This document shows, one piece after another, positions 17,923-42,568 of a stretch of DNA of 64,000 bases. This DNA comes from Pseudolabrys taiwanensis (lineage in GTDB: Bacteria > Pseudomonadota > Alphaproteobacteria > Rhizobiales > Xanthobacteraceae), in NCBI RefSeq assembly GCF_003367395.1, contig NZ_CP031417.1:4278001-4342000 (forward strand), in the 5' to 3' direction. The translations under genes were made by a program, and so were the position numbers. Position 1 is the stretch's first letter. Every line of letters begins with the position of its first letter. The notes under the pieces are model-generated. The model worked only from the letters and a program-made list of their open reading frames with translations. It had not been told where the DNA came from and ran no database searches.

Positions 17923-17935
17923 GATAATTTCGGCA
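17923..17935 (+). promoter_or_regulatory. Candidate -10 element for a leaderless hydantoinase mRNA
   Basis: GATAAT at 17923-17928 ends 6 bp before the ATG at 17935, so transcription would start at or next to the start codon. No Shine-Dalgarno sequence is visible in the preceding 20 bp. A weak TTGGAC lies at 17898-17903; poor -35 elements are usual at LysR-activated promoters. Confidence 0.4.
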
Positions 17936-20046
17936 TGACCGCAAACAAGGCACGTTTTCGCATCGGCATCGATACCGGGGGCACGTTCACCGATATCGTT
18001 TCTGTCGATTCCGATACCGGCGCAATGCGCGTTACCAAGGTGTCCTCGACACCGGCCAACCCGGCTGTCGGTCTCGTGCGCGGCGTCAATGCCATTCTCG
18101 ATGCGGTGAGTGCCGGCCCCGGTGACGTGCTCGGTCTCGCGCACGGGACGACGGTTGCCACCAACGCGCTGCTTCAGGGCGATATCCGTTCGCTTGGTCT
18201 CATCGTGACGCAGGGCTTCAGGCACATCCTGGAGATCGCGCGGCAATCGGTGCCGGAAGGCTACGGCAACTCATATTTCTGGGTGAAACCCGAGCGTCTG
18301 GTGCCGCTGCAATTCGTGCGCGAAGTCGGCGGCCGTCTAACCTTCAAGGGTGAGGAGTTGCGCCCGCTGGATGAGGACAGCGTGCGCGCCGCGGCGCGTT
18401 TCTTCAAGCGCCAGCGCGTCGAAGCCATCGGCATCTGCCTCATGCATTCCTATGCCAACGACGGGCACGAGCGGCGTGTGGCCGAGATCGTCGCCGAGGA
18501 ATATCCGGAAGCGACGTTGTCGCTCTCCTGCGCGGTGCTGCCGGAGTATCGCGAGTACGAGCGCGCGGTGACGACCTTGGTGGACGCGTTCGTAAAGCCT
18601 TATCTCGACCGTTATCTCAAGCGCGTGCACGACGAGCTTGGGTCCTTGCGCGACAAACCGTTCCTGGTGATGCAATCCTCAGGCGGCGTTGCCAGCGCCG
18701 ACCAGATCCTGCGCAAGCCGATCACGACAGCCTTGTCCGGTCCCGCCGCCGGTGCGCTCGGCTCGGCGGTGATCGCGGAGGTTGCCGGCTTTCCCGATCT
18801 CGTGACGCTCGACGCCGGCGGCACATCGACCGACTTCTGTTTGATCGAAAAGGCCAAACCGCATCTCACCAATGGCGGTTCGGTCGGCCCTTTCCCCGTG
18901 CGCATTCCGATGATCGACATTGCGACCATCGGCATCGGCGGCGGCTCCATTGCCTGGATTTCGCGTGAGGGTCATCTCAAGGTCGGCCCGCGCAGCGCTG
19001 GGGCCGTGCCTGGGCCGATGTGCTATCCGAACGGCGGCGACGAGCCCACGATCACCGACGCCAATCTCGTGCTCGGCCGCATTCCGCCGGCGTTGATCGG
19101 CGGCGGCATTGCGCTGAACATCGAGCGTTCGCGCGCCGGCATTGCCGCGCTGGCCAAACGCCTGCCCGGCAATATGACGCCGGAGGCGCTGGCGCACGGC
19201 ATTATCGAGATCGCCAACTGGGCGCAGGCCAATGCCATTCGACAGATGACAGTCCAGCGCGGCATCGATCCGCGCGGCTTCGCGCTGCTGTCGTTCGGCG
19301 GGGCGGGGCCCGCGCAATCGCCGGCGGTGATGGACCTGCTCGGCATGAAGGCCTGCATCGTGCCGCCGAACCCGGGCAATCTCTCCGCCTTCGGTCTGCT
19401 CGCGGTGGATTGGCGCACCGATCAGATCGTCACCAAGGTGATGCACGAGGATAGCGTCGACCTCGCCGCGATCGCCGCGCATTATGCCGCGCTCGAGCGC
19501 GAAGCGACCGAGACCTTGAAACGCGACGGCATCGATCCTTCGCGTATCCGTCTCGCGCGCGAAGCCGATGTCCGCTACGCCGGCCAGTCGATGGAAGTGC
19601 GCGTGCCGGCGCCCGGCGGCGCCGTCGATGCGGCGTTCCTGGCCCAACTGATCGAGGCTTTCAACGCCGCGCATCTGCGCACGTTCGGTTACAATTATGC
19701 CGGCAAGCAGAAGATCGAATTGGTGAACTTCTGCGTTTCGGGGTTCGGCGTCATCGAGCGGCCGAGTATGCCGAAGCTGTCTCTCGCCACCGCGAAAGCG
19801 GCGCCGAAGGGGACGCGCCCCGTCTATTTTCTCGACCATTACGCCGACACGCCGATCTACGATCGCGCCACGCTGGCCGCGGGCTTCCGCCTGCAAGGCC
19901 CTGCGGTGGTGGAAGAGTTCGGGTCGACGACCGTAGTGTTCCCCGATCAGACGCTGGAGGTCGACCCACACGGCATTCTGATCGTGCGTGCGGCTTCTGT
20001 TCCCTCCCCCTTTGTGGGGCAGGGGAGTGGAGACGCTCTGCCATGA
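17935..20046 (+). CDS. hyuA: Hydantoinase/oxoprolinase family protein, subunit A (HyuA-like)
   Basis: A 703-residue ATPase-fold subunit: RIGIDTGGTFTDIVSVD at the N-terminus is the phosphate loop of the actin/hsp70-like hydantoinase fold, followed by LAHGTTVATNALL, TLDAGGTSTDFCLI, GIGGGSIAW and LLSFGGAGPAQS. The family performs ATP-driven opening of five-membered cyclic amides (5-oxoproline, N-methylhydantoin) or, in the acetone carboxylase branch, ATP-dependent carboxylation. The ATG of subunit B overlaps its stop (ATGA). The last dozen or so residues are read through a repeat-like sequence (20002-20028). No ribosome binding site is visible upstream. Confidence 0.93.
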   Translation: MTANKARFRIGIDTGGTFTDIVSVDSDTGAMRVTKVSSTPANPAVGLVRGVNAILDAVSAGPGDVLGLAHGTTVATNALLQGDIRSLGLIVTQGFRHILEIARQSVPEGYGNSYFWVKPERLVPLQFVREVGGRLTFKGEELRPLDEDSVRAAARFFKRQRVEAIGICLMHSYANDGHERRVAEIVAEEYPEATLSLSCAVLPEYREYERAVTTLVDAFVKPYLDRYLKRVHDELGSLRDKPFLVMQSSGGVASADQILRKPITTALSGPAAGALGSAVIAEVAGFPDLVTLDAGGTSTDFCLIEKAKPHLTNGGSVGPFPVRIPMIDIATIGIGGGSIAWISREGHLKVGPRSAGAVPGPMCYPNGGDEPTITDANLVLGRIPPALIGGGIALNIERSRAGIAALAKRLPGNMTPEALAHGIIEIANWAQANAIRQMTVQRGIDPRGFALLSFGGAGPAQSPAVMDLLGMKACIVPPNPGNLSAFGLLAVDWRTDQIVTKVMHEDSVDLAAIAAHYAALEREATETLKRDGIDPSRIRLAREADVRYAGQSMEVRVPAPGGAVDAAFLAQLIEAFNAAHLRTFGYNYAGKQKIELVNFCVSGFGVIERPSMPKLSLATAKAAPKGTRPVYFLDHYADTPIYDRATLAAGFRLQGPAVVEEFGSTTVVFPDQTLEVDPHGILIVRAASVPSPFVGQGSGDALP
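20002..20028 (+). repeat. C/G-rich hairpin-like repeat inside the 3' end of the hyuA-like gene
   Basis: The run CCCTCCCCC-TTTG-TGGGGCAGGGGAG can fold on itself and resembles the dispersed CCTCCCC/GGGGAGG elements of Bradyrhizobium-type genomes. Here it lies in frame and encodes the Pro/Gly/Ser-rich tail of HyuA. Confidence 0.4.
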
Positions 20047-21953
20047 ACATCCGCGCCGCCGCCTCTCCCGCCGATGTGAAGCCCTGGCCGACAGCGCCAA
20101 AGGGCACCAAGGTCGCGGTCGATCCGATCGTCCTCCAGATCGTCGAAGGCACGCTCAATTCGATCGAAGCCGAGATCGAATTCGCGATCGAGCGCACGGC
20201 GCGCTCGCCGATGATCCGCGAAGCGCACGATTACCGCGTCGGCCTGTTCGACAAATACTGCCGCAAGCTCACCGGCCGTTCCTACTCGGCAATGCCGAAT
20301 GCGGTGGTGCGAGACTTCGCGCCGCACACGATGAAGCCCGGCGACGTGTTCCTGATGAACGACACGTATCTGACGGAAGGCTCGATCGGCCATCTGCCCG
20401 ATCTGTGCTCGACCGTGCCGGTGTTCCACGACGGTGAAGTCGTCGCTTATATCCAGGCCTTCGGTCATCACGACGATGTCGGCGGCCGCGTGCCGGGCTC
20501 GATGCCGGGCACGGCCGTCACCGTGTTCGAGGAAGGTCTCGCCATTCCGCCGGTGAAGCTCTACAGCGAAGGCGTGTGCAACGAGGGTGTGATGACCATC
20601 CTCAAGCGCAACACGCGCGTGCCGGAGATGCTCGCCGCCGATATCGACAGCGAGGTGCAGGCCTGCCTGATGGGCGCGCGCCGCATGGCCTCGCTGTTCG
20701 AGCGCTTCGGCCGGGCGCAGGTCGAAGCGTGTTTCCAGGCGATCCTCGACAAGTGCCGCGACATCTATCGCAACGAGCTGCTGCCCAAAATCGCCGACGG
20801 CGAATATGTCTGGGAAGACTACGTCGAGCACGACGGCGTCACCGATCCCAAGCTGCACAAGCTCTCCTTGAAGATGATCAAGAAGGGCGGGCGCATCACG
20901 CTCGACTTCAACGGCACCGATCCGCAATCGTCGGGGCCGATCAACTGGCCGGCCGATTACGCCGACGGCGCCTTCCTGATCAAATGGATCGCGCCGATCC
21001 TGCGCAACCTCGCCGAGACGCCCGAGCGCGCCGCCGAGTTGCACGTCAACGAAGGCGTCTGCGAGATCTTCGACGTTATCTTCCCGCCGAAAGGCACGTT
21101 GATCACGCCGGAATGGCCGGCGGCGACCAATGCGCGCTCCTTTGTGCTGTTGCGTTGCATTGGTCTGCTCGCCGGCGTGGTGGCGCAGGCGGTCGACGGC
21201 CGCATGCCGGCCGATCAAGAGACGATCCGCTACACCGGCTTCTTCGGCAAGGACCAGAACGGCAAGCAGTTCCTGTCGCGCGAGGTGCTCGGCGGCGGCT
21301 CGGGCGGGCGCTATTACGCCGACGGCAACGATGCCATCCATATCGTGCCGGACTCGCGCAACCAGCCGGCCGAGTTCACTGAAACGCGTTTCCCGTTGCT
21401 GGTGGAGAAGCTGGCCTTGCGCACCGATTCCGGCGGCGCGGGCTTCCGCCGCGGCGGTCTCGGCTACGAGAAGCATTACCGCGCGCTGGTCGATTGCCGC
21501 ACCATCGTCACGGCCGATCGCGTCCGTCTCGGCTGCTACGGCCTCAATGGCGGCAAGGCGGGACAGCCCTTCTGCGTCACCGTCGATCTTGAAGGCGCGC
21601 CGCGCGATCTCGGCGGCCTGGTCGACGGCGAACCGGTCGTGGCCGGTCAGGTCGTGCGTGTCGTCACGACCGGCGGCGGCGGCTGGGGCGACGCGCTCGA
21701 GCGCGAGCCGGACCTCGTGGCGAAGGATGCGACCGAAGGTCGTATCTCGCTTGCGAGCGCGCGCGACGATTATGGCGTCATTCTTGCTCCTCGACCGGGC
21801 GATGACGAGGATGGCTACACGATCGATGCCGCGGCGACGCTCAAACAGCGTGCGGAACTGCTGGCGAAGCGGACTGCGCCTCTGCCGATGATCGATCGCG
21901 GTGAAGGTTTCGAGAAGATGCTGCGCGGCGAATGCCCGCCGCGCATGAAATAG
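20043..21953 (+). CDS. hyuB: Hydantoinase/oxoprolinase family protein, subunit B (HyuB-like)
   Basis: A 636-residue partner subunit: [30 protein letters not shown], then [35 protein letters not shown] and the C-terminal HyuB blocks [18 protein letters not shown] and [14 protein letters not shown]. The [10 protein letters not shown] run supplies metal-binding-type His/Asp residues. HyuA and HyuB form the heteromeric ATP-dependent amidohydrolase; gene order and the 4-bp ATGA overlap support a complex with a 1:1 supply. The downstream ring-opening amidohydrolase suggests cyclic ureides or imides as substrates. Confidence 0.93.
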
Positions 21954-21973
21954 CGTCAAGGAAAGCAGAAGCG

Positions 21974-23068
21974 ATGGCGATTGAAGTTGCGAAAGTCGAA
22001 TTGAAGACCGTTCAGGACGCGAGCGGCGTCGAAGAGTGCATCAAGGCCGGGCGTTTTGCCGCGGACGACGTCATCGCCGTCATCGGCAAGACCGAGGGCA
22101 ACGGCGGCGTCAACGACTTCACGCGCATTCTGGCCGATCAGGCCTTCCGCAAGGTGCTGTTGAAGCACGGCAGCCGTGGTGAAGCGAAAATCGCCGAGAT
22201 CCCGATGGTGTGGTCGGGCGGCTGCGACGGTGTCATCACGCCGCATGCCACGGTTTTCGCGCGCAACGACAAGACCGGGCCTGCCTCGAAAGCGCGTCTT
22301 GCCATCGGCACCGCCATGAGTGCTGAATTGCTGCCGGAAGACATCGGTCGCATCGCCATGGTCGAGAAGGTCGCCGAGGGCGTGAAGGCGGCGATGAAGG
22401 ATGCCGGCATCGACGATCCGAAGGATGTGCACTACGTGCAGACCAAGACGCCGCTCCTGACCATCGACGCGGTGCTCGACGCCGCCAAGCGCGGCAAGGA
22501 CGTCGCCTGCGAGGTGCACGAGTCGATGGGCGTGTCGAACGGCACGACGGCGCTCGGCATCGCGGTGGCGCTCGGCGAGATCAAGATGCCCAAGGCGGAA
22601 GAGATTTGCCGCAACCTCGATCTCTATTCCTCGGTGGCGTCCTGCTCCTCGGGCGTCGAACTCACCCAGGCGCAGATCGTGCTGCTGGGGAACAAGGCGG
22701 GGGCGGGCGGCCGCTACCGGATCGGGCATTCGATCATGAAGGACGCCCTCGACATCGACGGCATCTACGAATCCATCCGCAACGCCGGCCTCGAGCTGCC
22801 GCAGCGTCCGCGTGCCTCCGATCTCGGCGGCAAGCTGGTCAACTGCTTCATGAAGTGCGAGGCTGATCGCACCGGCAAGCTGCACGGGCGGCGGCAGATC
22901 ATGCTCGACGACTCCGATGTGCCCTGGCACCGCCATATCAAGGCGGCCGTCGGTGGCGTCGCCGCCACCGCCATCGGCGATCCGGCCGTCTTCGTCTCTG
23001 TCGACGCCATGCATCAGGGGCCGCAGGGCGGTGGCCCGGTGATCGCCATCATCGACGCCGGGGAGTGA
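21974..23068 (+). CDS. Ring-opening amidohydrolase, barbiturase / cyanuric acid hydrolase family
   Basis: A 364-residue member of the small AtzD/TrzD/barbiturase family, which has three similar domains each giving a Ser-Lys pair. Visible repeats of the motif: [13 protein letters not shown] with [20 protein letters not shown] with [25 protein letters not shown] with [16 protein letters not shown]. The enzymes open barbiturate to ureidomalonate or cyanurate to carboxybiuret. I choose ATG 21974, with AAGGAAAG 8-9 nt upstream. Because barbiturate is the product of oxidative uracil breakdown and this locus has molybdenum hydroxylases and an amidase, barbiturase is my preferred reading; cyanuric acid hydrolase or another cyclic imide hydrolase remains possible. 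Confidence 0.88.
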
Positions 23069-23181
23069 CCGTAACGGGCCCGCGGCACGAGCTTTGCTTG
23101 CAAACGAACGAACGCCGGCGGGTCGCCGGTTCCGTGGGTGATATGCTGGAAAAGTCCAGTCAACCGGGGGAGTTACGTGAG

Positions 23182-24177
23182 ATGACCAAGTTCGGACGCA
23201 GCCGACGGCAGGTGCTCGTCGCGGGTCTCGTCGCCGCCACGCTCAGCGGCCTGTCGGTCGCGGCGCAAGCCGAAGCCGACAAGGTGAAGGTCGGCGTCTT
23301 CCCGATCAGTTCGTCGCTGCCGTATTTTGTGGCCATCGAGAAGGGCTACTTCAAGGAGCTCAATATCGAGCCCGAGACCATCAGGCTGATGGGCGGTCCG
23401 CCGAACGTGGCCGGCCTGATGACCAACCAGATCGAGGTTTCGGCGGTTCTGGTCACCCTCGAAGGCCTCAACGCCGACGTCAAAAAGCCCGGCGTGGCGA
23501 TGTACGTCGCCATGCACAGCCAGACGTCGGTGTACAAGATGGAGCAGTTCGTGGTGCGCACGGGCCTTGCCGACAAGGTGAAGTCGCTCAAGGACTTCAA
23601 GGGCCTCAAACTGATGACGGCGCCGGGCCCGGCCAACCTCAACACCGCCAAGGGCATTCTCGCCAAGAACGGCCTCAAAGAAGGCGAATACTCCATCGAT
23701 CAGCTCGACATGGGCCAGCATGTGAACGCCATGAAGGCAGGCACCTTCGACGGCGGTTACACGCTAGAGCCGAGCGCCACGATGATGGAGAAGATGGGCA
23801 TCGCCAAGACCGTCGAGGCGGGGGTGATCTCCAAATACGTTCTCGGCGATGAGAAGGCCGATGCCTTCGCCGCCGGTTGCGCGTTCTCCTCGGACTTCAT
23901 CGCGAAGCGTCCCGATGTCGCCAAGCGCTTCGCGCAGGGCTGGGCGAAAGCGGTCGACTACATCAAGAAGAACCCGGACGACGCCCGCAAATACCTCGCC
24001 AAGAACACCATGACGCCGGACGACTTGGTCGATAGCGTGCCGATGCTGGGCTACGAGATGGTCGGGAACTTCACGCCCGCGCAACTCGGCTACCTGCAGA
24101 AGTTCGCGGATTTCGGCACGCAAATCGGCGTTGTGCCGGAGAAAGTCGACGTCAAGAAGTTCCTGAAGGCCTATTGA
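23182..24177 (+). CDS. ABC transporter substrate-binding protein, NMT1/THI5-like
   Basis: A 331-residue binding protein with an N-terminal twin-Arg-like signal (GRSRRQVLVAGLVAATLSG, cleavage after AAQA). The mature part has FPISSSLPYFVAIEKGYFKELNIEP, a Gly-rich loop (MGGPPNVAGLMTNQIEVSAV) and GTFDGGYTLEP. THI5/NMT1-like proteins bind pyrimidine precursors, riboflavin-like molecules or sulfonates; the pyrimidine-type ligand would fit the barbiturase next door. ATG 23182 has GGGGGAG upstream; the frame from 23065 is open but unlikely. Confidence 0.9.
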   Translation: MTKFGRSRRQVLVAGLVAATLSGLSVAAQAEADKVKVGVFPISSSLPYFVAIEKGYFKELNIEPETIRLMGGPPNVAGLMTNQIEVSAVLVTLEGLNADVKKPGVAMYVAMHSQTSVYKMEQFVVRTGLADKVKSLKDFKGLKLMTAPGPANLNTAKGILAKNGLKEGEYSIDQLDMGQHVNAMKAGTFDGGYTLEPSATMMEKMGIAKTVEAGVISKYVLGDEKADAFAAGCAFSSDFIAKRPDVAKRFAQGWAKAVDYIKKNPDDARKYLAKNTMTPDDLVDSVPMLGYEMVGNFTPAQLGYLQKFADFGTQIGVVPEKVDVKKFLKAY

Positions 24178-24197
24178 TCGATGCGGCCGCTATCCTC

Positions 24198-24276
24198 GTC
24201 CCCGCGAAAGCGGGGACCTGGTGGCCTAGGGCACGGGCATCTCAATGCCGCGCTGGATTCCCGCTTTCGCGGGAAT
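24198..24276. repeat. Pair of dispersed REP-like hairpins
   Basis: Two hairpins in the gap between binding protein and ATPase: GTCCCCGC-GAAA-GCGGGGAC (24198-24217) and ATTCCCGC-TTTC-GCGGGAAT (24257-24276). The second recurs nearly identically at 49711-49730. They could attenuate transcription so that the binding protein is made in excess over the ATPase and permease. Confidence 0.7.
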
Positions 24277-24319
24277 GAGCCGAGATTGGGTCAACTGCAC
24301 TAAAGGAGTGGCAGCTACG

Positions 24320-25150
24320 ATGACAGTGGCGCAGGCGACTCTCTCGTCTCAATTCGAGGCCTTGCCGCAATCGGCCACTGCGTCGGCGGTTGTCCGACCG
24401 CACGTCACTATCCGCGGCCTCAGCAAGAAGTTCGGCAACACCGTCATTTACGACAACTTCGATCTCGATCTGCCGCGCGGCAAGCTCATTTCGGTGTTCG
24501 GGCCGAACGGTTGCGGCAAGAGTACGCTCATCAACATGATTGCGGGCCTCATCCCGGTCGACGCAGGGCAAATCCTGTTCGACGGCATGCTGCTCGACGA
24601 GATCAAGTTCGGCTACGTGTTTCAAAACTATCGCGAAGCGTTGTTCCCGTGGATGCGGGCCTTCGACAATATCGCCTATCCGCTGAAGATGATGAAGGTG
24701 TCGAAGCGGGAGCGTCAGGAGCGGGTCGAGAGGCTGGTCGCCCATCTTGGCATCAAGCTCGACCTGAATCTCTACCCCTACCAGATGTCCGGCGGGCAGC
24801 AGCAGCTCGTATCGATCATGCGGGCGCTGGTTGTCGACCCGGAGATTCTCTTTCTCGACGAGCCGTTTTCCGCGCTCGACTACGAGATGACCCTGTTCAT
24901 GCGCGAGCAGTTGCAGAAGCTGTTCATGGAAAGCGGCACGACCATGGTGCTCGTTTCGCACGACCTGGAAGAGGCGGTCTACCTGGCCGATCGTGTTCTG
25001 CTGCTGTCGCGGCATCCGGCGCGGGTCGCGGACTTCACCGTAGTCGATTGCGCCCGCCCGCGCGACGACGCCACTCTGTCGGATCCGGAGTTTGTGCGCC
25101 TCAAGGCGCATTGCCTGGAGATTTTCCAACGCGAGGTGCGGCGGTCATGA
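24320..25150 (+). CDS. ABC transporter ATP-binding protein (SsuB/ThiZ-like)
   Basis: A 276-residue ATPase: Walker A FGPNGCGKST, Q-loop YVFQNYREALFPWM, signature MSGGQQQL, Walker B LFLDEPFSALDYEM, switch SHDLEEAVYLAD. ATG 24320 is preceded by AAGGAG (24303-24308). It ends in a 4-bp ATGA overlap with the permease gene. Part of the importer formed with 23182 and 25147. Confidence 0.93.
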   Translation: MTVAQATLSSQFEALPQSATASAVVRPHVTIRGLSKKFGNTVIYDNFDLDLPRGKLISVFGPNGCGKSTLINMIAGLIPVDAGQILFDGMLLDEIKFGYVFQNYREALFPWMRAFDNIAYPLKMMKVSKRERQERVERLVAHLGIKLDLNLYPYQMSGGQQQLVSIMRALVVDPEILFLDEPFSALDYEMTLFMREQLQKLFMESGTTMVLVSHDLEEAVYLADRVLLLSRHPARVADFTVVDCARPRDDATLSDPEFVRLKAHCLEIFQREVRRS

Positions 25151-25905
25151 CGCGCCTTCTCGATCCCTTCTTGCCCATCGTCGGCGTTGTCGGCCTGCTC
25201 ATCATCTGGGCCGTCGCTGTGTACGGTGGCTTCGTCGATCCGGTGCTGCTGCCGCCGCCCAAGGACGCCTTCATCGCCCTGTGGAAGGGCATGAACGGGG
25301 GTGTTCTGTGGGTCGATTTCGTACGCACCGTCGAGCGCACCGTCTGGTCCACGCTGATCGCGGCCGTCATCGCGATCCCGCTCGGTATCGTGCTCGGATC
25401 GAGCGAGCGCCTTTACCGTTCGCTCGAGTTCGTCATCGATTTCTTCCGCTCGACACCGGCGTCGGCGATGTTCCCGCTCTTCCTGGTGCTGTTCGGCGTC
25501 GGCGACAAGACCAAGATTTCGGTCGCGGCCTTCGGCGCGGCGCTGGTCATCCTCTTCAACGTCGCCTATGGCGTGATGAACGCGCGCAAGACGCGGCTGC
25601 TTGCGGCGAAAGTGATGGGCGCCTCACGCCTGCGCGTGCTGTTCGACGTCATGTTGCTTGAGTCCCTGCCGCAGACGTTCGTCGGCCTGCGCAACGGCGT
25701 ATCGCTCGCGCTAGTCATCATCGTCGTCGCCGAGATGTTCATCGGCTCGCAGGACGGGCTCGGCCACAGCGTGTTCGAAGCGCAGCAGCTCTTCGAAATG
25801 CCGCGCATGTATGCGGCCATTTTTGCCGCCGGCGCGCTGGGCTATGGACTCAATCTGCTGTTTCTGCTGATAGAGCGGCGATTTGTGCACTGGTCCGGGA
25901 AATAG
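25147..25905 (+). CDS. ABC transporter permease (SsuC/ThiX-like)
   Basis: A 252-residue membrane protein with about six helices, beginning MTRLLDPFLPIVGVVGLLII and containing the coupling-helix region around AAKVMGASRLRVLFDVMLLESLPQ. The ATG overlaps the ATPase stop. The longer frame upstream of 25147 is the shadow of the ATPase gene. Completes the second NMT1-type importer. Confidence 0.93.
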   Translation: MTRLLDPFLPIVGVVGLLIIWAVAVYGGFVDPVLLPPPKDAFIALWKGMNGGVLWVDFVRTVERTVWSTLIAAVIAIPLGIVLGSSERLYRSLEFVIDFFRSTPASAMFPLFLVLFGVGDKTKISVAAFGAALVILFNVAYGVMNARKTRLLAAKVMGASRLRVLFDVMLLESLPQTFVGLRNGVSLALVIIVVAEMFIGSQDGLGHSVFEAQQLFEMPRMYAAIFAAGALGYGLNLLFLLIERRFVHWSGK

Positions 25906-34911: not shown

Positions 34912-36009
34912 CTACCGGATCCAGCGAATGCGATGGCGGATCAGGAATTCCGACGACGCCACCGCCATGACGATGATGGCTTCGATCAACTGCACCATCG
35001 TGAACGGGATTTGATAGAAGATCTGCAACGACTGGCCGACGATGAACAGCACGGCGATGAGAAAGCTGACGACGGCAACGACGATCGGATCGTTGCGCGA
35101 CAGGAAGGCAATGAGTACGCCGGAGAACACGTAACCGTCGGCGAAGGATTGCGTCAGACGGCCTTCCTGGCTCGCCACATTGACGAAACCGGCGAGGCCG
35201 GCGCAGGCGCCGGAGAGGCCGACGATCCAGATGGTGATCGATTTGATCGGGATGCCGACGACCTTGGCCATGCTCGGATTGGCGCTGATGAAACGCATGT
35301 AGAAGCCGACGCGGCTGAAATGGATCAGCCAGCCGGCCGCGACCACCACGGCGAGCGCGATGAGAAGGCCGCTGTTGATGCCGATGCCGATCTCGGTCAA
35401 CCGCTCGAACGGCTTGTAGGGTGTCGATTGCGGGAAGGCCGAGCGCGCATCCTGCCAGGCGCCGTAGAGCAGATGGAACAGGAAGTACATCGCCACGTAG
35501 TTCAGCAGCAGCGTGGCGATGATCTCGTTGACACGGAAGCGCATCTTCAGGAAGGCCGCGAGCAGACACCACAGCGCGCCGCCGATGGCCGCGGCGACAA
35601 GCATGATGCCGAGACGGATCGGGGCCGGGCCGACCTCATACATCGACACCGCCGTGGCGAAGATGCCGCCGAACAGCATCTGGCCTTCGAGGCCGAGATT
35701 CCAGAAGCCCATGCGGAAGGCGAGGCTGGCGGCAAGGCCGACCAGGATCAACGGTGCGGTCTGGATGAGGATATTGCGCAGGCTCTCGGCGTTGAACGCG
35801 CCGGCAAGTTCGCCCGCGAGCTGCAGCGGCGAGATGCCGGCCGCCGCGAGGATGGCGACGGAGATGGCGAGGCCGACGAACAGCGAACCGCCGAGGAACA
35901 GGCCCTGCTTCCACGCCGGCAGGCTCTGCCGCATGTCGAGGACGATGCGTGAACGGGCGGCGTGAGCCGGTTCCGGCGCGGCGGCCTTCATGGCGGATAC
36001 ATCATGCAT
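34912..36009 (-). CDS. ABC transporter permease, BMP/nucleoside type (YufP/NupP-like)
   Basis: A membrane protein of about 365 residues of the same family, with a longer N-terminal cytoplasmic region (to about residue 55 from the chosen start), then helices (LFLGGSLFVGLAISVAILAAAG) and the domain markers TAPLILVGLAASLAFRMGFWNLG and RFRVNEIIATLLLNYVA. Start ATG 36009 overlaps the ATPase end by 8 bp; ATG 35991 is equally possible, and neither has a strong ribosome binding site. Confidence 0.9.
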   Translation of the reverse strand: MHDVSAMKAAAPEPAHAARSRIVLDMRQSLPAWKQGLFLGGSLFVGLAISVAILAAAGISPLQLAGELAGAFNAESLRNILIQTAPLILVGLAASLAFRMGFWNLGLEGQMLFGGIFATAVSMYEVGPAPIRLGIMLVAAAIGGALWCLLAAFLKMRFRVNEIIATLLLNYVAMYFLFHLLYGAWQDARSAFPQSTPYKPFERLTEIGIGINSGLLIALAVVVAAGWLIHFSRVGFYMRFISANPSMAKVVGIPIKSITIWIVGLSGACAGLAGFVNVASQEGRLTQSFADGYVFSGVLIAFLSRNDPIVVAVVSFLIAVLFIVGQSLQIFYQIPFTMVQLIEAIIVMAVASSEFLIRHRIRWIR

Positions 36010-37507
36010 GGTCCACCATGGCGCGGCCAATGGCTTGTCTGTCGGCGGGACGATCGAACTCGGCGACAATACGGCCGCGCGTCATCACGCCGATGCGGTC
36101 GGACAGGTTCATGACTTCGTCGAGGTCCTCGCTGATGAGCACGACGGCGGCGCCGCGATCGCGCGCGGCCAGCAGCCGCTGATGCACGGCGTTGCAGGCA
36201 CGCGCGTCGAGGCCGCGGCTTGGGCTATGGGCGACGACAACGGCTGGCTCGCGGCTGAACTCGCGCGCGATCACCAGCTTCTGCGCGTTGCCGCCGGACA
36301 GAAGCGCCGCGCGCTGATCGATGCTGCGCACGCCTTGAACGTCGTAGTCGGCGACGGCCTGCGTGGCATCGCGCCGAATCGCGCCGCGATCCACCATGGC
36401 GAGCGAGCCGTAGCGGCCCGAGCCGATGTTGGCGACGGCGAAGTTGTCGGCGATCGACAAGGTGCCGGCGAGCGCGAAGGAATATCGATCGGCTGGAATG
36501 GCCGCGACGGCGGCCATGCGCGCGCCCGACATCGGCGCCTGCGCGACGTTGCCGAGCCCGTCGATGAAAAGCTCGCCTTCGGCCGGCTGGCGCGCGCCAA
36601 TCAAGGCCTCGGCCAGTTCCGCCTGGCCGTTGCCGCTGACGCCGGCGATGCCGTAGATCTCACCGGCGCGCACGAAGAAGGTCGCATCCTCGAGCGCCGT
36701 GCGTCCGTCCGCGCGCAGGCATCGGAGCCGGCCGACATTGAGCCGCGTTGGGGCGCCGTCGGCCTTGCGCACATGCGGCGAAAAAGGCTGTGTGTCGCCG
36801 ACCGTGAGCTGGGTCAGTTCCGCCGCCGTCGTCTGTGACGGGTCGAGCGTCGCGACGGCTTTGCCGCGCCGCATGATGGTGACCTTGTCGGCATAACGCT
36901 TCACCTCGTGCAGCTTGTGCGTCACGAGCACCACGGCGGCGCCGGCACGCGCCAGCGTTTGCACGGTCTTGAGCAGTTGATCGGCCTCGGCGTCGGTGAG
37001 GACGGCCGTCGGCTCGTCGAGCACTAGAATGCGCGCGCCGCCGACCAGCACCTTGACGATCTCGACCTGCTGCTGTTCGGCGACGGTGAGCGTACTGACG
37101 CGCCGGTCGGGGTCGATGGCGAAGCCGAGCGCGCGCGATTGCTCTTCGATCGCCGCGCGAATGTCCTTGATGCCGGCGCGGTAGCGCGGCCGCTGATTGG
37201 CGAGGAGGATGTTCTCGGCCACGGTGAACGGCATCACCAGCTTGAAATGCTGGTGCACCATGCCGATGCCGCGGGCGCGCGCATCGGCCGGGCCGTTGAG
37301 CGAAACGGCAGCGCCGTCGATGAGAATGCGGCCGCCCTCCGGCGCATAAAGACCGGCGGCGACATTCATGAGCGAGGATTTGCCGGCGCCGTTTTCGCCG
37401 AGGAGGGCGTGAACCTCCCCGGCTTTGGCACCGAACGTGGCTTCGTCGAGGACCACCACCCCGTCAAAGGACTTGCGGATTCCCTCTAGGGCCAGCGCCT
37501 CGGTCAT
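36002..37507 (-). CDS. ABC transporter ATP-binding protein with two ATPase domains (YufO/NupO, sugar/nucleoside type)
   Basis: A 501-residue tandem ATPase. The first domain has Walker A GENGAGKSS, signature LTVAEQQQVEIVKV and Walker B ILVLDEPTAVLTD. The second has GVSGNGQAEL in place of a normal Walker A (no GKS/T), signature LLSGGNAQKLVIARE and VVVAHSPSRGLDA. Such asymmetry is normal in the RbsA/YufO family. Lies 18 bp after the BMP gene. Confidence 0.93.
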   Translation of the reverse strand: MTEALALEGIRKSFDGVVVLDEATFGAKAGEVHALLGENGAGKSSLMNVAAGLYAPEGGRILIDGAAVSLNGPADARARGIGMVHQHFKLVMPFTVAENILLANQRPRYRAGIKDIRAAIEEQSRALGFAIDPDRRVSTLTVAEQQQVEIVKVLVGGARILVLDEPTAVLTDAEADQLLKTVQTLARAGAAVVLVTHKLHEVKRYADKVTIMRRGKAVATLDPSQTTAAELTQLTVGDTQPFSPHVRKADGAPTRLNVGRLRCLRADGRTALEDATFFVRAGEIYGIAGVSGNGQAELAEALIGARQPAEGELFIDGLGNVAQAPMSGARMAAVAAIPADRYSFALAGTLSIADNFAVANIGSGRYGSLAMVDRGAIRRDATQAVADYDVQGVRSIDQRAALLSGGNAQKLVIAREFSREPAVVVAHSPSRGLDARACNAVHQRLLAARDRGAAVVLISEDLDEVMNLSDRIGVMTRGRIVAEFDRPADRQAIGRAMVDHA

Positions 37508-37525
37508 GCGGAACGGTCGCTCGCG

Positions 37526-38605
37526 TTACTTCTGCGTGATGACACCAGGAATGTACCAGTCCATCTTCCAGAGGCCGGCGTCGTCGATCGGCTTGCCGGC
37601 GGCGAGCCGCTCCTTGCCGGTCGTGTCGGACATCGGCCCGGTGAAGATCTGCTTGCCGGCGATGATAGCGTCGCGCTCTTTCATCACCTTGTCGACGACT
37701 TCCTTCGGCACGGCCGGACCGCAGCAAGCAATATCGGTGCCGCCGTCCTTGATGCCGGGGAAGGCGCCGAAGGGCTGCGCCTGCCAGTTCCCGGCCATCA
37801 CCTTCTTCAGTTCAGGCGCCAGGAACTTGTCCCAGGTCCAGGCCGACGAGCAGAGCGTCGCCTTGGGGGCGAACTCACGCAGGTCGCGGTGGTGGCCGGT
37901 GCCGTAGATGCCGCGCTCCTGCGCGACGATCTGCGGTGTCGGCGTGTCGACATGTTGGCCGATGACATCGATGCCTTGATCGGCCAGGGCCGAGGCGGCC
38001 GCGCGTTCCTTCACCGGGTCGTTCCACGCGCCGGTGAAGATGACGGTCACCGTCGCTTTCGGGTTCATCGCCTTGGCGCCGAGCTCATAGGCGTTGATGG
38101 TCCAGTTCACCGGGCCGATCGGATGCGCGGCGACGAAGCCGAGCTTGCCCGTCTTCGACACGCCGCCTGCGATCATGCCGCACAGATACTGGCTTTCGTA
38201 GGTGCGGCCGTAGAAAGATTCGAGGTTGGTGCCGTTGGTCGTGCCCGAGGCGTTGAGGAAGGCGACCTTCGGATATTTCTCCGACAGCTCCTTGAAGGTA
38301 TCGGAATAACCGAAGGCGGTGCCGATGATCACGTTGTAGCCGCGGGCGATAAAGCCTTCCGCGGCCGGTTTAATCTTGCCCGCGACCTCCGGCACATTCT
38401 CGACGAACGGGATTTTCATGCCGACGGCGGCCTCGATCTTCGGTCGCGCCTCGTCGAAGGCTTGCGTCCAGCCGCCGTCGTTCCTTTCGGCAAAATACAG
38501 GAAGGCGATCTTGGGCGGCGCCGACAAAGTGAAGCCGGCGGCGTGCGCCGCCGTCATGCCGGCGAGTACCGCAAACCCCAACAACGACGCTATTTTTAGA
38601 CGCAT
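37526..38605 (-). CDS. BMP-family ABC transporter substrate-binding protein (nucleoside-like)
   Basis: A 359-residue basic membrane protein (PnrA/Med family) with signal peptide MRLKIASLLGFAVLAGMTAAHA. Core motifs: KIAFLYFAERNDGGWTQAFDEA, VENVPEVAGKIKPAAEGFIARGYNVIIG, GKLGFVAAHPIGPVNW and DVIGQHVDTPTPQIVAQERG. The Trp in DGGWTQ and the Asp/His positions resemble base-stacking residues of PnrA-type proteins. ATG 38605 has AGAAGGA upstream; ATG 38626 is the alternative. First gene of the importer operon, divergent from the second molybdenum hydroxylase. Confidence 0.92.
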   Translation of the reverse strand: MRLKIASLLGFAVLAGMTAAHAAGFTLSAPPKIAFLYFAERNDGGWTQAFDEARPKIEAAVGMKIPFVENVPEVAGKIKPAAEGFIARGYNVIIGTAFGYSDTFKELSEKYPKVAFLNASGTTNGTNLESFYGRTYESQYLCGMIAGGVSKTGKLGFVAAHPIGPVNWTINAYELGAKAMNPKATVTVIFTGAWNDPVKERAAASALADQGIDVIGQHVDTPTPQIVAQERGIYGTGHHRDLREFAPKATLCSSAWTWDKFLAPELKKVMAGNWQAQPFGAFPGIKDGGTDIACCGPAVPKEVVDKVMKERDAIIAGKQIFTGPMSDTTGKERLAAGKPIDDAGLWKMDWYIPGVITQK

Positions 38606-38689
38606 GACGCTGATCCTTCTGTTCATGATCCGGCGAATTCATACGAGGGGCAATCGTTGCAAAGCGGCGATGAGTTTGCGCGCACATAG

Positions 38690-38794: not shown

Positions 38795-38824
38795 TTGACT
38801 TTCGTCCGCGATGCTTCGCATAGT
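38795..38824 (+). promoter_or_regulatory. Candidate promoter for the second molybdenum hydroxylase operon
   Basis: TTGACT (38795-38800), 18 bp, CATAGT (38819-38824), about 43 bp before the start at 38867. Confidence 0.4.
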
Positions 38825-38866
38825 GACGGCCCGACGTGTTTGTATCGGGTATCGCTCAAACGCTTC

Positions 38867-39742
38867 ATGAAGCCAGCACCCTTCAAATACATTGCCGCTG
38901 AATCGCTAGAGCACGCCTTGGCCGTGAAGGCGGAGTATGGCGACGAGGCGCGTTTCCTGGCCGGTGGGCAAAGCCTGGTGCCGGCCATGAACTTTCGTCT
39001 CGCGCAGCCGGCGGTGCTGATCGACGTCAACCCAATCGAGGCCCTCTCGAGCATCGGTCGCGTCAACGGTCATGCACTACGCATCGGCGCGTTGACGCGC
39101 TACCGCATGCTCGAGCGCGATGCTGCGATCGCCGGGGAGATTCCGCTGATCGCCGAGGCTTTGCCGCATATCGCGCATCCGCAGGTCCGCAATCGCGGCA
39201 CCATCGGCGGCAATCTTTCGCACGCCGATCCGGCGTCCGAACTGCCCGCGATCGTTGTCGCACTGGAAGGACGATTGCGTGCGCAATCGGCGCGCGGTGA
39301 GCGCTGGATCGTGGCGTCCGATTTTTTCTTGGGGCCGCTGACGACCGCCTTGGCCGACGACGAGATGCTGACCGAGGTCGAGTTGCCGTTGCAGCCGGCG
39401 CGCAGCGGTTCCTGTTTCATGGAAGTCGCCCGCCGCAAGGGCGACTTCGCGTTGCTCGGCATCGCCGTTGTCGTCGCCGTCGACGAGGCGGGTGTTTGCA
39501 GGCGCGTCCGCGCCGCCTTGTGCGGCGGCGGTGAGACGCCGGTCGATGTCAGCGCAGCGGCGGCCGTGCTGATCGGCCGTCAGGATAGGGAAGCGGCCGT
39601 CACAGACGCCGCCGCGGCCGTCCGGCAAGCCGTCGATCCGCCCGGCAACATGCACGCCGATCCCGGCTACCAACGTCATCTTGCCGGCGTGCTCGCCAAG
39701 CGCGCTCTGGCCGCGGCTTTGGAGCGCGCGTGTCATGGATGA
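38867..39742 (+). CDS. Molybdenum hydroxylase FAD-binding subunit, second set
   Basis: A 291-residue CoxM-type subunit: MKPAPFKYIAAESLEHALAV, FAD loop AGGQSLVPAMNFR, second loop NRGTIGGNLSHADPASELPA (the consensus GGNLSHADP, better kept than in the first set), CO_deh_flav_C from about residue 180. Its end overlaps the [2Fe-2S] subunit gene by 8 bp. Paralogue of 29213. Confidence 0.93.
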   Translation: MKPAPFKYIAAESLEHALAVKAEYGDEARFLAGGQSLVPAMNFRLAQPAVLIDVNPIEALSSIGRVNGHALRIGALTRYRMLERDAAIAGEIPLIAEALPHIAHPQVRNRGTIGGNLSHADPASELPAIVVALEGRLRAQSARGERWIVASDFFLGPLTTALADDEMLTEVELPLQPARSGSCFMEVARRKGDFALLGIAVVVAVDEAGVCRRVRAALCGGGETPVDVSAAAAVLIGRQDREAAVTDAAAAVRQAVDPPGNMHADPGYQRHLAGVLAKRALAAALERACHG

Positions 39743-40226
39743 GGATTTGCACGATATCGCCGTGACCGTGAACGGCACGGCCTATAAACGCCGCGTCGAA
39801 TCGCGGCAGCTGCTGAGCGATTTCCTGCGCCACGAATTGCGCCTCGCCGGGACCCATGTCGGTTGCGAGCACGGCGTCTGCGGCGCCTGCACCGTGCAGA
39901 TCGACGGCGTGCCGATGCGCTCGTGTCTCGTCTTTGCGGTGCAGATGAACGGCAAGTCGCTCACGACGGTCGAGGGACTCGCGCCCTCGGCCGACCGGCT
40001 GCATGTGCTGCAGGAGGCGATGCATGCGCATCACGGTTTGCAATGCGGCTATTGCACACCGGGCATCCTGATGACCATGAGCGCGTTTCTGGAGGACTGT
40101 CCCGAGCCTAACGAGGAACAGGTGCGCGAGGCGCTGTCGGGCAATCTTTGCCGCTGCACCGGCTATCAACACATCGTCGATGCGGTGCTCGCGGCGGCAG
40201 CGCGCCTCAAGGAGGCGCGGCCGTGA
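39735..40226 (+). CDS. Molybdenum hydroxylase [2Fe-2S] subunit, second set
   Basis: A 163-residue subunit with CEHGVCGACTVQIDG (plant-type cluster) and QCGYCTPG / NLCRCTGYQH (second cluster). ATG 39735 lies within the end of the FAD subunit gene. Very similar in its core to the first-set subunit at 30091. Confidence 0.95.
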   Translation: MDEDLHDIAVTVNGTAYKRRVESRQLLSDFLRHELRLAGTHVGCEHGVCGACTVQIDGVPMRSCLVFAVQMNGKSLTTVEGLAPSADRLHVLQEAMHAHHGLQCGYCTPGILMTMSAFLEDCPEPNEEQVREALSGNLCRCTGYQHIVDAVLAAAARLKEARP

Positions 40227-42568
40227 CGACACGCTATTTCGGCGAGCCGATCCCGCGCAATGAAGACCGGCGGCTGCTGACCGGCCAGGCTCTGTTCGTC
40301 GACGACGTCGAGTTGCCGGGTTTGCTGCACGCGGCGCTGCTGCGCAGCCAGGTCGCCCATGCCCGCATCAAGTCGATCGACGTCAGCGCGGCGCTCGCGC
40401 GCAAGGGCGTCGTTGCGGTCTACACGGCCGAGGACCTTGGCGCCTATTGGCAGCCGGGGCCTTTGCTGGTGCCGCCGCCACCGATCGCCGGCATTGTCTT
40501 CAACCAGCGCATGCAGGTGCCGCTGGCCAAGGATAAGGTGCGGCATGTCGGCGAGCCGATCGCGATCGTGGTGGCCGAGAGCCGCTATATCGCCGAGGAC
40601 GCGCTCGCCGATATCGATGTCCAACTGGAGACGCTGCCGCCGGTGGTCGATCTGGAGCGCGCGCTCGAAAAGGATGGCTCTCTCGTCCACGAGGATGTCC
40701 GCTCCAACGTGTCCGCGCACGTGCGGCAATGCAAGGGCGATTACGCCAAAGCGGCGGCGAAGGCGGACCACATCATCCGCCGCCGGTTTCATTACGATCA
40801 CGGCATGTCGTCGCCGATGGAGACGCGCGGTGTCGTCGCGCAATGGGACGCGCGCGCCAGTCAACTCACCATCTGGGACACGACGCAGGCCCCGGTCTTT
40901 GTCCGCAACGGCCTCGCCGCGATGCTGGGCCTTGGCGAGCGGCAAGTGCGGGTCATCGCTCCTTTCGTCGGCGGCGGCTTCGGCCCGAAGATCATGATCT
41001 TCTATCCGGAAGAAGTGCTGCTGCCGTGGATTGCGATCAAATTGAACCGGCCGGTGAAGTGGATCGAGGACCGGCTCGAGCACTTTGTCGCCACGACGCA
41101 TGAGCGGGGGCAGATCCACGACGCCGAGATCGCGCTGAGCCGCGACGGCAAGATTCTCGGCATCAAGGACGTGTTCTTGCACGATGCCGGCGCTTACGAT
41201 CCTTACGGACTGACGGTGCCGATCAACAGCCAGTGCACTCTGCTCGGTCCTTATGTCGTGCCCAACTATGACAGCACCTTCACCGCGGTCTTTACCAACA
41301 AGCCGATCGTGACGCCCTACCGTGGCGCAGGGCGTCAGCACGGGGTTTTTGTGATCGAGCGGCTGCTCGATTTCGCCGCGCGCGAGCTGGGCATCGACCG
41401 CGCGGAAATCCGGCGCCGCAATCTCATTCCGGCGGATGCCTTTCCGTACAACAACGAGATCATCTATCAAGACTTCGCGCCGCTCGAATACGACAGCGGC
41501 AATTACGAACCTGTGCTCGACAAGGCGCTGGCTGCGATCGACTACGCCCGCTTCGTGACGGAAGAGCAGAAGAAGCTGCGCGCACAAGGCCGACACGTCG
41601 GCGTCGCGGTGGCCTGCTATGTCGAGGGCACCGGCATCGGCCCATACGAGGGCGCGCGCGTCCAGGTGCAAGCCAATGGCAAGGTCAGTCTTGCCACCGG
41701 TATCGGCACGCAAGGCCAGGGCCACTTCACCAGTTTCGCGCAGATCGTCGCCGACCAGCTCGGTGTCGACGTGCGCGACGTCGATGTGGTGACGGGCGAC
41801 ACCGACCAGTTCTATTGGGGCGCCGGCACCTTTGCGAGCCGCGGCGCGGTCGTGGCCGGCAATGCCGTCAACGAAGCCTCGAAAGTCGTACGTGAGAAAA
41901 TTCTGAAGCAAGCCTCCGAACATTTTGAATGCGCTGTCGAGGATCTCGAGCTCGGCAGCGGGCAGGTGTCGATCGTCGGCGTGCCCGGCAAGTCGGTCCG
42001 CCTCGGCGAGCTCGCGATGCGTGCCAACCCGATGCGCGGCGCGGTCAAGCCCGGAACGGAGCCGGGGCTGGAGTCGACGCAGTATTTTGGGCCGCCGAAG
42101 GGCGCCACGGCCAACGGCGTGCACGCAATGCTGCTCGAGATCGACCCCGACACATTGATGGTGCAGATTCTGAAGTACGTCGTCGTGCACGACTGCGGCA
42201 CGGTCATCAATCCGCTGATCCTTGCAGGTCAGATTCACGGTGGCGTCGCGCAGGGTATCGGCAATGCCTATTATGAAGAGCTGATGTTCAATGAGGAAGG
42301 TCAGCTCATGAACGCGTCGCTCGCGGACTATCTGCTGCCGACTTCGCTCGAGGTGCCGCGCATGGAGCTTGGGCACACCGTGACGCCCTCGCCGCTCAAT
42401 CCGATGGGCGTCAAAGGCGCGGGCGAGGCCGGCGCCATTCCGGTCGGGCCGCTATTCGCGCAGGCGATCGAAGATGCGCTGGGTCTTGGCGAGAGGAAGA
42501 TTGAGCTTTGCGAAATTCCCCTCAGTCCGAACAGGCTCTGGCGGGTGTTGAGCCGAGCCGACGGTTGA
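40223..42568 (+). CDS. Molybdenum hydroxylase molybdopterin-binding large subunit, second set
   Basis: A 781-residue catalytic subunit: TTRYFGEPIPRNEDRRLLTG, GGGFGPKIMIFYPEE, active-site loop VTPYRGAGRQHGVF, TQGQGHFTSF and MGVKGAGEAGA with the base Glu. The loop resembles the AYRGAGR motif of form II CODH-like hydroxylases, in contrast to PYRGCGRPQ in the first set, so the two enzymes probably have different substrates. Starts at GTG 40223 (GTGA overlap) behind AAGGAGG. Confidence 0.93.
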   Translation: MTTRYFGEPIPRNEDRRLLTGQALFVDDVELPGLLHAALLRSQVAHARIKSIDVSAALARKGVVAVYTAEDLGAYWQPGPLLVPPPPIAGIVFNQRMQVPLAKDKVRHVGEPIAIVVAESRYIAEDALADIDVQLETLPPVVDLERALEKDGSLVHEDVRSNVSAHVRQCKGDYAKAAAKADHIIRRRFHYDHGMSSPMETRGVVAQWDARASQLTIWDTTQAPVFVRNGLAAMLGLGERQVRVIAPFVGGGFGPKIMIFYPEEVLLPWIAIKLNRPVKWIEDRLEHFVATTHERGQIHDAEIALSRDGKILGIKDVFLHDAGAYDPYGLTVPINSQCTLLGPYVVPNYDSTFTAVFTNKPIVTPYRGAGRQHGVFVIERLLDFAARELGIDRAEIRRRNLIPADAFPYNNEIIYQDFAPLEYDSGNYEPVLDKALAAIDYARFVTEEQKKLRAQGRHVGVAVACYVEGTGIGPYEGARVQVQANGKVSLATGIGTQGQGHFTSFAQIVADQLGVDVRDVDVVTGDTDQFYWGAGTFASRGAVVAGNAVNEASKVVREKILKQASEHFECAVEDLELGSGQVSIVGVPGKSVRLGELAMRANPMRGAVKPGTEPGLESTQYFGPPKGATANGVHAMLLEIDPDTLMVQILKYVVVHDCGTVINPLILAGQIHGGVAQGIGNAYYEELMFNEEGQLMNASLADYLLPTSLEVPRMELGHTVTPSPLNPMGVKGAGEAGAIPVGPLFAQAIEDALGLGERKIELCEIPLSPNRLWRVLSRADG

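Follow-up and report, generated by a model that had tools for sequence, protein, structure and literature searches.

A putative oxidative pyrimidine breakdown cluster of two linked modules, with a barbiturase-type ring-opening enzyme, in Pseudolabrys taiwanensis

The window analysed here is a stretch of 64,000 nucleotides from the genome of Pseudolabrys taiwanensis, which consists of one contig of 5.6 Mb (window: G000:C1:4278001-4342000). The genes between positions 16812 and 42568 (Table 1) fairly probably form a cluster for the oxidative breakdown of pyrimidines (or of another N-heterocycle). It would consist of two linked modules, module A (16812-27324 and 38918-42568) and module B (27474-38626). 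The window proteins were scanned with Pfam and NCBIfam. Every gene named in the original prediction, which was made from the sequence alone, was found again, and the five transcription units hold on the basis of gaps and strand alone. The gene for a LysR-type regulator is also part of the set, though it is outside the range delimited originally (17935..42568). The set is not a chance assemblage: genome G009 keeps orthologs of all cluster genes within ~27 kb of one contig (with a different block order; loci L165 and L038), and the core of HyuAB, barbiturase, importer and amidase was found again in many other loci.

Table 1. Genes of the cluster (positions in the window).
Feature	Position	Strand	Basis
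LysR-type regulator	16812..17723	+	PF00126/PF03466; ortholog beside HyuAB in many barbiturase loci
HyuA subunit, hydantoinase/oxoprolinase family	17935..20046	+	PF01968, PF05378, PF19278
HyuB subunit	20043..21953	+	PF02538
Barbiturase-type ring-opening amidohydrolase	21974..23068	+	PF09663 (462 bits); nearest structure 5hwe; signature residues; tree
NMT1/THI5-type substrate-binding protein, ABC importer	23065..24177 (start uncertain)	+	PF13379, PF09084
ATPase of NMT1-type ABC importer	24245..25150	+	PF00005
Permease of NMT1-type ABC importer	25147..25905	+	PF00528
Amidase-signature amidase, candidate ureidomalonase	25915..27324	+	PF01425 (334 bits)
IPNS-like 2-oxoglutarate (2OG)/Fe(II) oxygenase	27474..28454	+	PF14226, PF03171; HTD by pattern; downstream His and RxS by eye
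Alpha/beta hydrolase	28461..29216	+	PF12697; GHSMG
Molybdenum (Mo) hydroxylase 1, FAD subunit	29213..30091	+	PF00941, PF03450
Mo hydroxylase 1, [2Fe-2S] subunit	30088..30621	+	PF01799, PF00111 in longer frame 29200-30621, residues 320-463
Mo hydroxylase 1, molybdopterin subunit	30627..33020	+	PF02738, PF20256, PF01315; PYRGCGR loop, GVGEAG
Isochorismatase-like cysteine hydrolase	33144..33839	-	PF00857; Asp, Lys, Cys by eye
BMP importer permease 2	33967..34902	-	PF02653
BMP importer permease 1	34912..35991	-	PF02653
BMP importer ATPase	36002..37507	-	PF00005, two stretches
BMP (PnrA-like) substrate-binding protein	37526..38626	-	PF02608
Mo hydroxylase 2, FAD subunit	38795..39742 (start uncertain, perhaps 38918)	+	PF00941, PF03450
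Mo hydroxylase 2, [2Fe-2S] subunit	39735..40226	+	PF01799
Mo hydroxylase 2, molybdopterin subunit, candidate uracil/thymine dehydrogenase	40223..42568	+	PF02738, PF20256; PYRGAGR loop, GAGEAG; orthologs beside barbiturase

The ring-opening enzyme encoded at 21974-23068 is very probably a barbiturase. It is 65.3% identical to the barbiturase of structure 5hwe, which is its nearest solved structure (497 bits), versus 40.3-45.6% to four cyanuric acid hydrolases, the best of which scores 316 bits. The barbiturases (Group VI) carry the signature Asn195/His321/Lys325/Val345/Ser-or-Ala346 in AtzD numbering, according to the accessible part of PMC3758960. The window enzyme has Asn/His/Lys/Val/Asp, so that four of the five residues are as published. 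The first four are present in all 84 orthologs (picked at >=60% identity); the fifth is Asp in 82 of these, which are all the non-actinobacterial ones, and Ala in two actinobacterial ones. The residue alignment consists of unique sequences matching more than 300 query residues, and two rows labelled 'oth' in it (L035 and L091) are barbiturase-type by residues. The catalytic Ser-Lys dyads and Glu230 are all kept (K40, S79, K156, S226, E230, K285, S333). Cyanuric acid hydrolases are marked by two arginines and an SGGxExQGPxGGGP motif (PMC9118981, accessible part). The window enzyme has Asn and Lys at AtzD R194 and R324, and SGGxExQGPxGGGP is not found in it. At aligned position 188, both 5hwe and the window enzyme have Asn, unlike the glutamine given for the barbiturase subgroup in the accessible part of PMC4051656; that of PMC3758960 also gives Asn.

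A tree of 61 rows, with 28 random picks of the 82 non-actinobacterial orthologs, was computed by a quick method with SH-aLRT values only. It separates a group with 5hwe and the window enzyme from the cyanuric acid hydrolases (support 99), as sought by the original prediction, which had left the enzyme at the level of the barbiturase/cyanuric-hydrolase family. That family assignment stands and can be narrowed to the barbiturase type by residues, structure match and tree; a cyanuric acid hydrolase identity was rejected because of the signature residues and the tree. The NCBIfam equivalog model for cyanuric acid hydrolase (CyanAcHdlAtzD, NF052395) is passed with 452.6 bits (cut-off 360), so this model also takes in barbiturase-type sequences.

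Further family members were seen. The host genome codes for a second one (G000:C1:2776700; L001, L051), which is of the cyanuric-acid-hydrolase type and closest to 4nq3; a distant HyuAB pair (31-35%) is encoded within 8 kb of it. Tandem pairs of divergent members (33-37% identity) occur in L052 (genome G018) and in G052:C5, and one of those in L052 has Lys, Asp, Arg, Ala and Asn at the five signature positions. There are 132 plasmid records with family members, 67 of them from Rhizobium and the others from Citrobacter, Klebsiella, Enterobacter and more. In 38 of the 40 plasmid rows listed, the identity is ~46%, and most are named ring-opening amidohydrolase.

The neighbourhoods of barbiturase orthologs provide the pyrimidine context. 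From 116 relatives found, 80 loci with 75-90% identity to the window enzyme were kept. They are mostly from alphaproteobacterial metagenome bins, but also from beta- and gammaproteobacteria and from bins labelled Rokubacteria, Acidobacteria, Spirochaetaceae and others (labels may be wrong). Neighbouring genes were scored by tblastn (E 1e-25, >=35% identity). HyuAB was found near 33 of the 80 orthologs, the NMT1-type binding protein near 32, the amidase near 31, a cytosine deaminase near 23, malonyl-CoA decarboxylase and FdrA/AllG near seven each, and malonyl-CoA synthase and an NCS2 permease near three each. For the main comparison, the 45 loci of at least 15 kb were set against 21 control loci from other branches of the family; the controls are from the window's own order, the barbiturase loci from a wider set. 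Enriched near barbiturase are the amidase (23/45 vs 0/21, Fisher 1e-5), cytosine deaminase (19/45 vs 0/21, 1e-4), HyuAB (21/45 vs 1/21, 5e-4) and Mo hydroxylase (9/45 vs 0/21, 0.02), with p-values that overstate independence because many loci are near-copies and the controls are of other taxa. The NMT1-type binding protein is found in 20/45 vs 1/21. Malonyl-CoA decarboxylase (4/45), malonyl-CoA synthase (3/45), NCS2 (1/45) and FdrA/AllG (6/45) are all absent from the 21 controls but singly not significant. No enrichment was seen for the 2OG oxygenase (3/45 vs 1/21), the BMP binding protein (0/45 vs 1/21) or the cysteine hydrolase (0/45 vs 0/21). Five of the 45 loci (L088, L089, L108, L118, L131) were negative for all seven pathway gene types that were scored, as was L086, where HyuAB is present. 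In five cases, one contig goes under two names (L115/L204, L069/L166, L061/G009, L113/L213, L116/L206).

Individual loci illustrate the pattern. In Bradyrhizobium sp. U87765 (L119), genes for an NCS2-like permease (29%), cytosine deaminase (37%), barbiturase, amidase, malonyl-CoA decarboxylase and malonyl-CoA synthase stand in a row, with no Mo hydroxylase within 10 kb. Three loci (L057, L076, L115) combine HyuAB, Mo hydroxylase 2, an NCS2 uracil-permease-like gene and barbiturase. The actinobacterium Embleya (L134/L175) has HyuAB, an NCS1 permease, cytosine deaminase, PucR, a CoA-transferase, a carboxyltransferase, carbamate kinase and barbiturase; a Mo hydroxylase is ~8 kb beyond this set, with unrelated genes between. 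In Nonomuraea (L133), no relative of the window's other genes was found within 12 kb of barbiturase. The plasmid stretches of Nonomuraea and Embleya are without annotation, and their genes were called in this analysis. Among the names of extra genes, those of the malonyl-CoA synthase of L119, the FdrA of L097 and the cytosine deaminase of Embleya are over their cut-offs, and the cytosine deaminase of L105 is just under (384 vs 438). This gene set fits a route from cytosine via uracil, barbiturate, ureidomalonate and malonate to acetyl-CoA. The pyrimidine context suspected originally is thus borne out in relatives by cytosine deaminase, NCS2 permease and malonyl-CoA enzymes, and we consider a pyrimidine pathway a good bet for the core of the cluster, judging from gene content and neighbourhood. 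The host genome contains malonyl-CoA decarboxylase. It has no RutA over the cut-off (best 148.9 bits vs 498.3), and the Rut pathway was rejected for this reason. Two further genes of the host genome, ~6 kb apart (G000:C1:4632541 and G000:C1:4638870), resemble cytosine deaminase (39%) and the 2OG oxygenase of the window (59%).

The amidase has Lys82 and both Ser motifs of the amidase signature, and it is in the same operon as barbiturase in many loci. It likely catalyzes the ureido-acid step and is a candidate ureidomalonase. The original prediction let either the amidase or the cysteine hydrolase finish the ureido acid. The former is likely; the latter is disfavoured. The cysteine hydrolase was found near none of the 80 barbiturase loci, and its close orthologs in two loci (G009 in L165; L214) have the BMP importer and Mo hydroxylase 1 as neighbours, so that it is not the likely ureidomalonase. 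Its best match is to biuret hydrolase but weak (57 bits; against the BiuH NCBIfam model, 66.2 bits with a cut-off of 370), and N-carbamoylsarcosine amidohydrolase is also among its weak matches.

In a tree, both Mo hydroxylases of the window are in one group (support 99) with those near barbiturase in Alphaproteobacteria, in Rokubacteria/Acidobacteria bins and in Embleya; 17 of its 22 rows are near barbiturase. Among 150 relatives, orthologs of Mo hydroxylase 2 (>=62% identity; next group 49%) are found in eight and barbiturase orthologs in 18, including seven of these eight (Fisher 8e-7). The eighth is G046, in which the contig with this cluster begins within the gene for the importer ATPase. 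In a sample of 385 genomes of the class, barbiturase is found in nine, Mo hydroxylase in nine (E 1e-216, a limit chosen so that Mo hydroxylase 1 is included but the next group is not) and both in six (Fisher 2e-9; 5e-8 without the host genome). Nine of the Mo hydroxylase rows from this sample were placed in the tree, and all belong to the same group (support again 99). The Mo hydroxylase trees were restricted to matches of at least 330 query residues, the comparison of active-site loops to those of at least 450. One of the barbiturases in this sample (G305, 57% identity) is less sure, having Asn/Thr/Lys/Val/Ala; seven others examined have the same five residues as the window enzyme. Mo hydroxylase 1 passes the NCBIfam model for group 5 CO dehydrogenase (1000.9 vs cut-off 950), and CoxL and quinoline 2-oxidoreductase are the closest solved structures. 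The loops at the same alignment place are PYRGCGR (Mo hydroxylase 1) and PYRGAGR (Mo hydroxylase 2) vs AYACSFR of CoxL (8uem). The active-site loop motif of CoxL is AYxCSFR, and an identity as aerobic CO dehydrogenase was rejected on this basis. Judged by genomic context, uracil/thymine dehydrogenase is a candidate role for Mo hydroxylase 2, for which we see about even chances.

Of the 150 relatives, 15 have a HyuB ortholog. Fourteen of these belong to the 18 in which the barbiturase ortholog is complete, and the remaining one, G015, contains fragments of barbiturase (Fisher 2e-15 with G015 scored as negative). Across the 385 class genomes, nine carry HyuB (>=53%), eight of which have the Mo hydroxylase group and six barbiturase; a tenth match (42%) was left out of the count. 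The combination with HyuAB, expected to be unusual, is thus not so, as HyuAB is near 33 of the 80 barbiturase orthologs. The best NCBIfam match of HyuA is caprolactamase alpha (507 bits, under the cut-off of 1000), and the closest solved relative of HyuB is N-methylhydantoinase (7hk5, 222 bits). An operon in genome G348 (L203) contains, in this order, HyuA, HyuB, Mo hydroxylase 2, NCS2 and amidase but lacks barbiturase, and no barbiturase match was found for this incomplete genome in the class sample. The amidase of this operon shares 79% identity with the amidase that immediately follows barbiturase in L204/L115. The single case of L203 suggests that HyuAB may be able to open the ring alone. 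A role of HyuAB as ring opener is proposed tentatively, at somewhat less than even chances.

Module B shows its own pattern of co-occurrence. In three loci (L208, L210, L214), the BMP importer occurs together with a HyuAB paralog (49-54%) and Mo hydroxylase 1 (74%); the cysteine hydrolase was seen only in the last of these, and L208 and L214 also have CoxG-like and creatininase-family genes. In L059, a BMP-type importer is encoded with 32-39% identity. In G009, module B genes adjoin module A together with the 2OG oxygenase and the alpha/beta hydrolase. Three relatives (G009, G025, G039) have a 2OG oxygenase ortholog (78-81%), and each of them also has barbiturase and Mo hydroxylase 2. Thymine 7-hydroxylase, to which this enzyme had been linked, was not confirmed as its identity: thymine dioxygenase (151 bits) is not its closest solved relative, behind 9ovh (244 bits) and 6jyv (209 bits).

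From these data, we propose the following route. In module A, uptake of a pyrimidine or a barbiturate-like ring would be the task of the NMT1-type importer. Mo hydroxylase 2 may hydroxylate uracil (or thymine) at C6, yielding barbiturate, as uracil/thymine dehydrogenase (EC 1.17.99.4) does. The ring would be opened to ureidomalonate by barbiturase, the identity of which is well supported and the activity predicted. The amidase may then act as ureidomalonase (EC 3.5.1.95), releasing malonate and urea, and malonate could leave via malonyl-CoA, with malonyl-CoA decarboxylase encoded elsewhere in the genome. HyuAB, ATP-dependent by family, appears to be a regular hydrolase of the route, and may be a second ring opener that acts on the Mo hydroxylase product. 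In module B, the BMP importer, Mo hydroxylase 1, 2OG oxygenase, alpha/beta hydrolase and cysteine hydrolase would handle a second substrate, probably a nucleoside or N-substituted ring, and may feed the same route.

Several observations weigh against this proposal, in addition to the near-copies and the taxa of the controls mentioned above. Position 346 of the putative barbiturase is Asp, not Ser/Ala. Of the 18 barbiturase-bearing relatives, 11 are without a match at the level of the Mo hydroxylase clade (best 41-45% where shown; six candidates were scored per genome, and several genomes are incomplete), so these need another dehydrogenase or take up barbiturate itself. The flanks of only 13 of the 80 barbiturase loci contain a Mo hydroxylase, and two of these (L053, L087) are outside the clade. 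Clade members were also found in genomes of the class that gave no barbiturase match (G229, G348, G514); the clade is thus not confined to barbiturase genomes, which lowers confidence in the dehydrogenase role and in the overall interpretation. Neither the cysteine hydrolase nor the BMP binding protein is near any of the 80 barbiturase loci at 35% identity. In the host genome, the best match to malonyl-CoA synthase is 36% and that to cytosine deaminase 39%. The original idea that a Mo hydroxylase makes the barbiturate-like ring is retained for the linkage of the clade to barbiturase but weakened by the 11 relatives. Likewise, the island as a variant of oxidative pyrimidine breakdown is upheld by barbiturase and pyrimidine context, but as two linked modules rather than one linear pathway.

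Other explanations were weighed. The importer might bring in barbiturate, a 5-substituted barbiturate or a related natural imide, which HyuAB, barbiturase and amidase degrade, with the Mo hydroxylases acting on other substrates nearby. This direct uptake is unlikely. It would account for the 11 relatives, for the core of LysR, HyuAB, barbiturase, importer and amidase often being without a flanking Mo hydroxylase, and for Asp at the fifth position in all 82 non-actinobacterial orthologs. On the other hand, cytosine deaminase and a uracil-type permease adjoin orthologs, and in several phyla Mo hydroxylases of one and the same group are found near barbiturase. This recurrent linkage to HyuAB and barbiturase, together with the active-site loops, also makes a chance presence of the Mo hydroxylases, as aerobic CO dehydrogenases or as xenobiotic hydroxylases, quite improbable, even though the group 5 model and the closest structures would agree with such functions.

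We consider it improbable that the genes serve a hydantoin/creatinine-type route, with HyuAB opening an N-methylhydantoin-like ring, the cysteine hydrolase cleaving the carbamoyl amino acid and barbiturase as a side piece. N-methylhydantoinase as relative of HyuB, the weak match to N-carbamoylsarcosine amidohydrolase, and L208 and L214, which join the HyuAB paralog, Mo hydroxylase 1, a creatininase-family gene and the BMP importer, would be consistent with it. Yet both in the window and in most HyuAB-bearing loci, the neighbour of HyuAB is barbiturase and not the cysteine hydrolase, and malonyl-CoA genes sit in barbiturase operons. A cyanuric acid/biuret cluster is very improbable. It would require the ring-opening enzyme to be a cyanuric acid hydrolase, as its NF052395 score might imply, and the cysteine hydrolase to be a biuret hydrolase, its best match. 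That match is far under the cut-off (66 vs 370 bits), the nearest structure is a barbiturase, the marks from PMC9118981 (accessible part) are missing, and it is the other paralog of the host genome that is of the cyanuric-acid type.

Genes surrounding the cluster were also inspected. The upstream operon (10417-16750) codes for GntR, a cupin, an Ldh2-type dehydrogenase, RidA, an SDR, an FAD monooxygenase, an amidohydrolase 2 and a cupin. The same set (54-82% identity) neighbours barbiturase in L093, and part of it does so in L102/L049. The cluster is followed immediately (42905-45173) by genes for CheW and a methyl-accepting chemotaxis protein, which could sense the cluster substrate. A solute-binding protein (45354-46016, PF13531) is encoded near the Mo hydroxylases; PF13531 includes molybdate-binding proteins.

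The oxidative pyrimidine pathway of Rhodococcus erythropolis JCM 3132 consists of uracil/thymine dehydrogenase, barbiturase (EC 3.5.2.1) and ureidomalonase (via the accessible parts of PMC3758960 and PMC7662398). The window resembles it in having a barbiturase-type ring opening and an amidase that could give malonate and urea. It differs in that it is proteobacterial, with Asp at the fifth position of barbiturase, and in the presence of HyuAB, NMT1-type importer and Mo hydroxylases. The Group VI members listed in 2013 are, judged by their names, presumably from actinobacteria only. With Group VI barbiturase (PMC3758960, accessible part; 5hwe), the window enzyme shares 65% identity, the catalytic Ser/Lys and the N/H/K/V signature, but Group VI has Ser/Ala at 346 and the window clade Asp. 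The same source, in its accessible part, calls the pathway rare. By genome, barbiturase is indeed rare (9/385 of the class). Among 7999 proteins scored from a database clustered at 90% identity, 5159 match the window enzyme at E <=1e-140 (by estimate ~485 bits, with cyanuric acid hydrolases at <=316 bits; the best 120 matches were inspected), so that the barbiturase-type enzyme is widespread in sequenced nature. In the literature searched, which covered few subscription papers, no assignment of genes for uracil dehydrogenase or ureidomalonase was recognised; an earlier one is possible. The neighbourhoods supply gene candidates for both, suggest what HyuAB does and point to a branch that might save energy. 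In addition, they show that NCBIfam models misname the barbiturase-type enzyme as cyanuric acid hydrolase and Mo hydroxylase 1 as CO dehydrogenase. With N-methylhydantoinase, caprolactamase and 5-oxoprolinase, the window HyuAB shares the two-subunit HyuA/HyuB domain set; it differs from them in being under the equivalog cut-offs and in having Mo hydroxylase and barbiturase as partners.

The possible energy-saving branch concerns the last step. Ureidomalonate is an analogue of oxalurate with one more CH2. From this analogy, it is a reasonable inference that an FdrA/AllG-type transcarbamylase may replace the final hydrolysis in some relatives; the window itself has the amidase. Genes for FdrA and AllG are directly after the permease in L097, where the amidase stands in other loci, directly after barbiturase in L130, and after an amidase read in two frames in L094. 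Gene decay or faulty sequencing of a metagenome bin would explain this split amidase homolog (L094, 13848-15370). L070 has, one after the other, barbiturase, an amino-acid-kinase-family gene, AllH, FdrA, AllG, malonyl-CoA decarboxylase and malonyl-CoA synthase (FdrA, AllG and malonyl-CoA genes named by similarity, the kinase by Pfam family only). It is tempting, if doubtful, to extend this to a general scheme. The Mo hydroxylase clade would be the uracil/thymine dehydrogenase, its product would be opened by HyuAB as an ATP-driven 'barbiturase' beside or in place of the classical one, and some relatives would swap the final hydrolysis for an AllFGH-type transcarbamylase with carbamate kinase. 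Escherichia coli has oxamic transcarbamylase AllFGH with carbamate kinase AllK, acting on oxalurate (PMC11326118, accessible part). L070 is like this system in having homologs of AllH, FdrA and AllG and the kinase-family gene in a row with barbiturase. It is unlike it in that the set, which is not in the window, is beside barbiturase and malonyl-CoA genes rather than allantoin genes, with ureidomalonate as predicted substrate. If this holds, pyrimidine breakdown in such relatives would give carbamoyl phosphate and ATP instead of urea.

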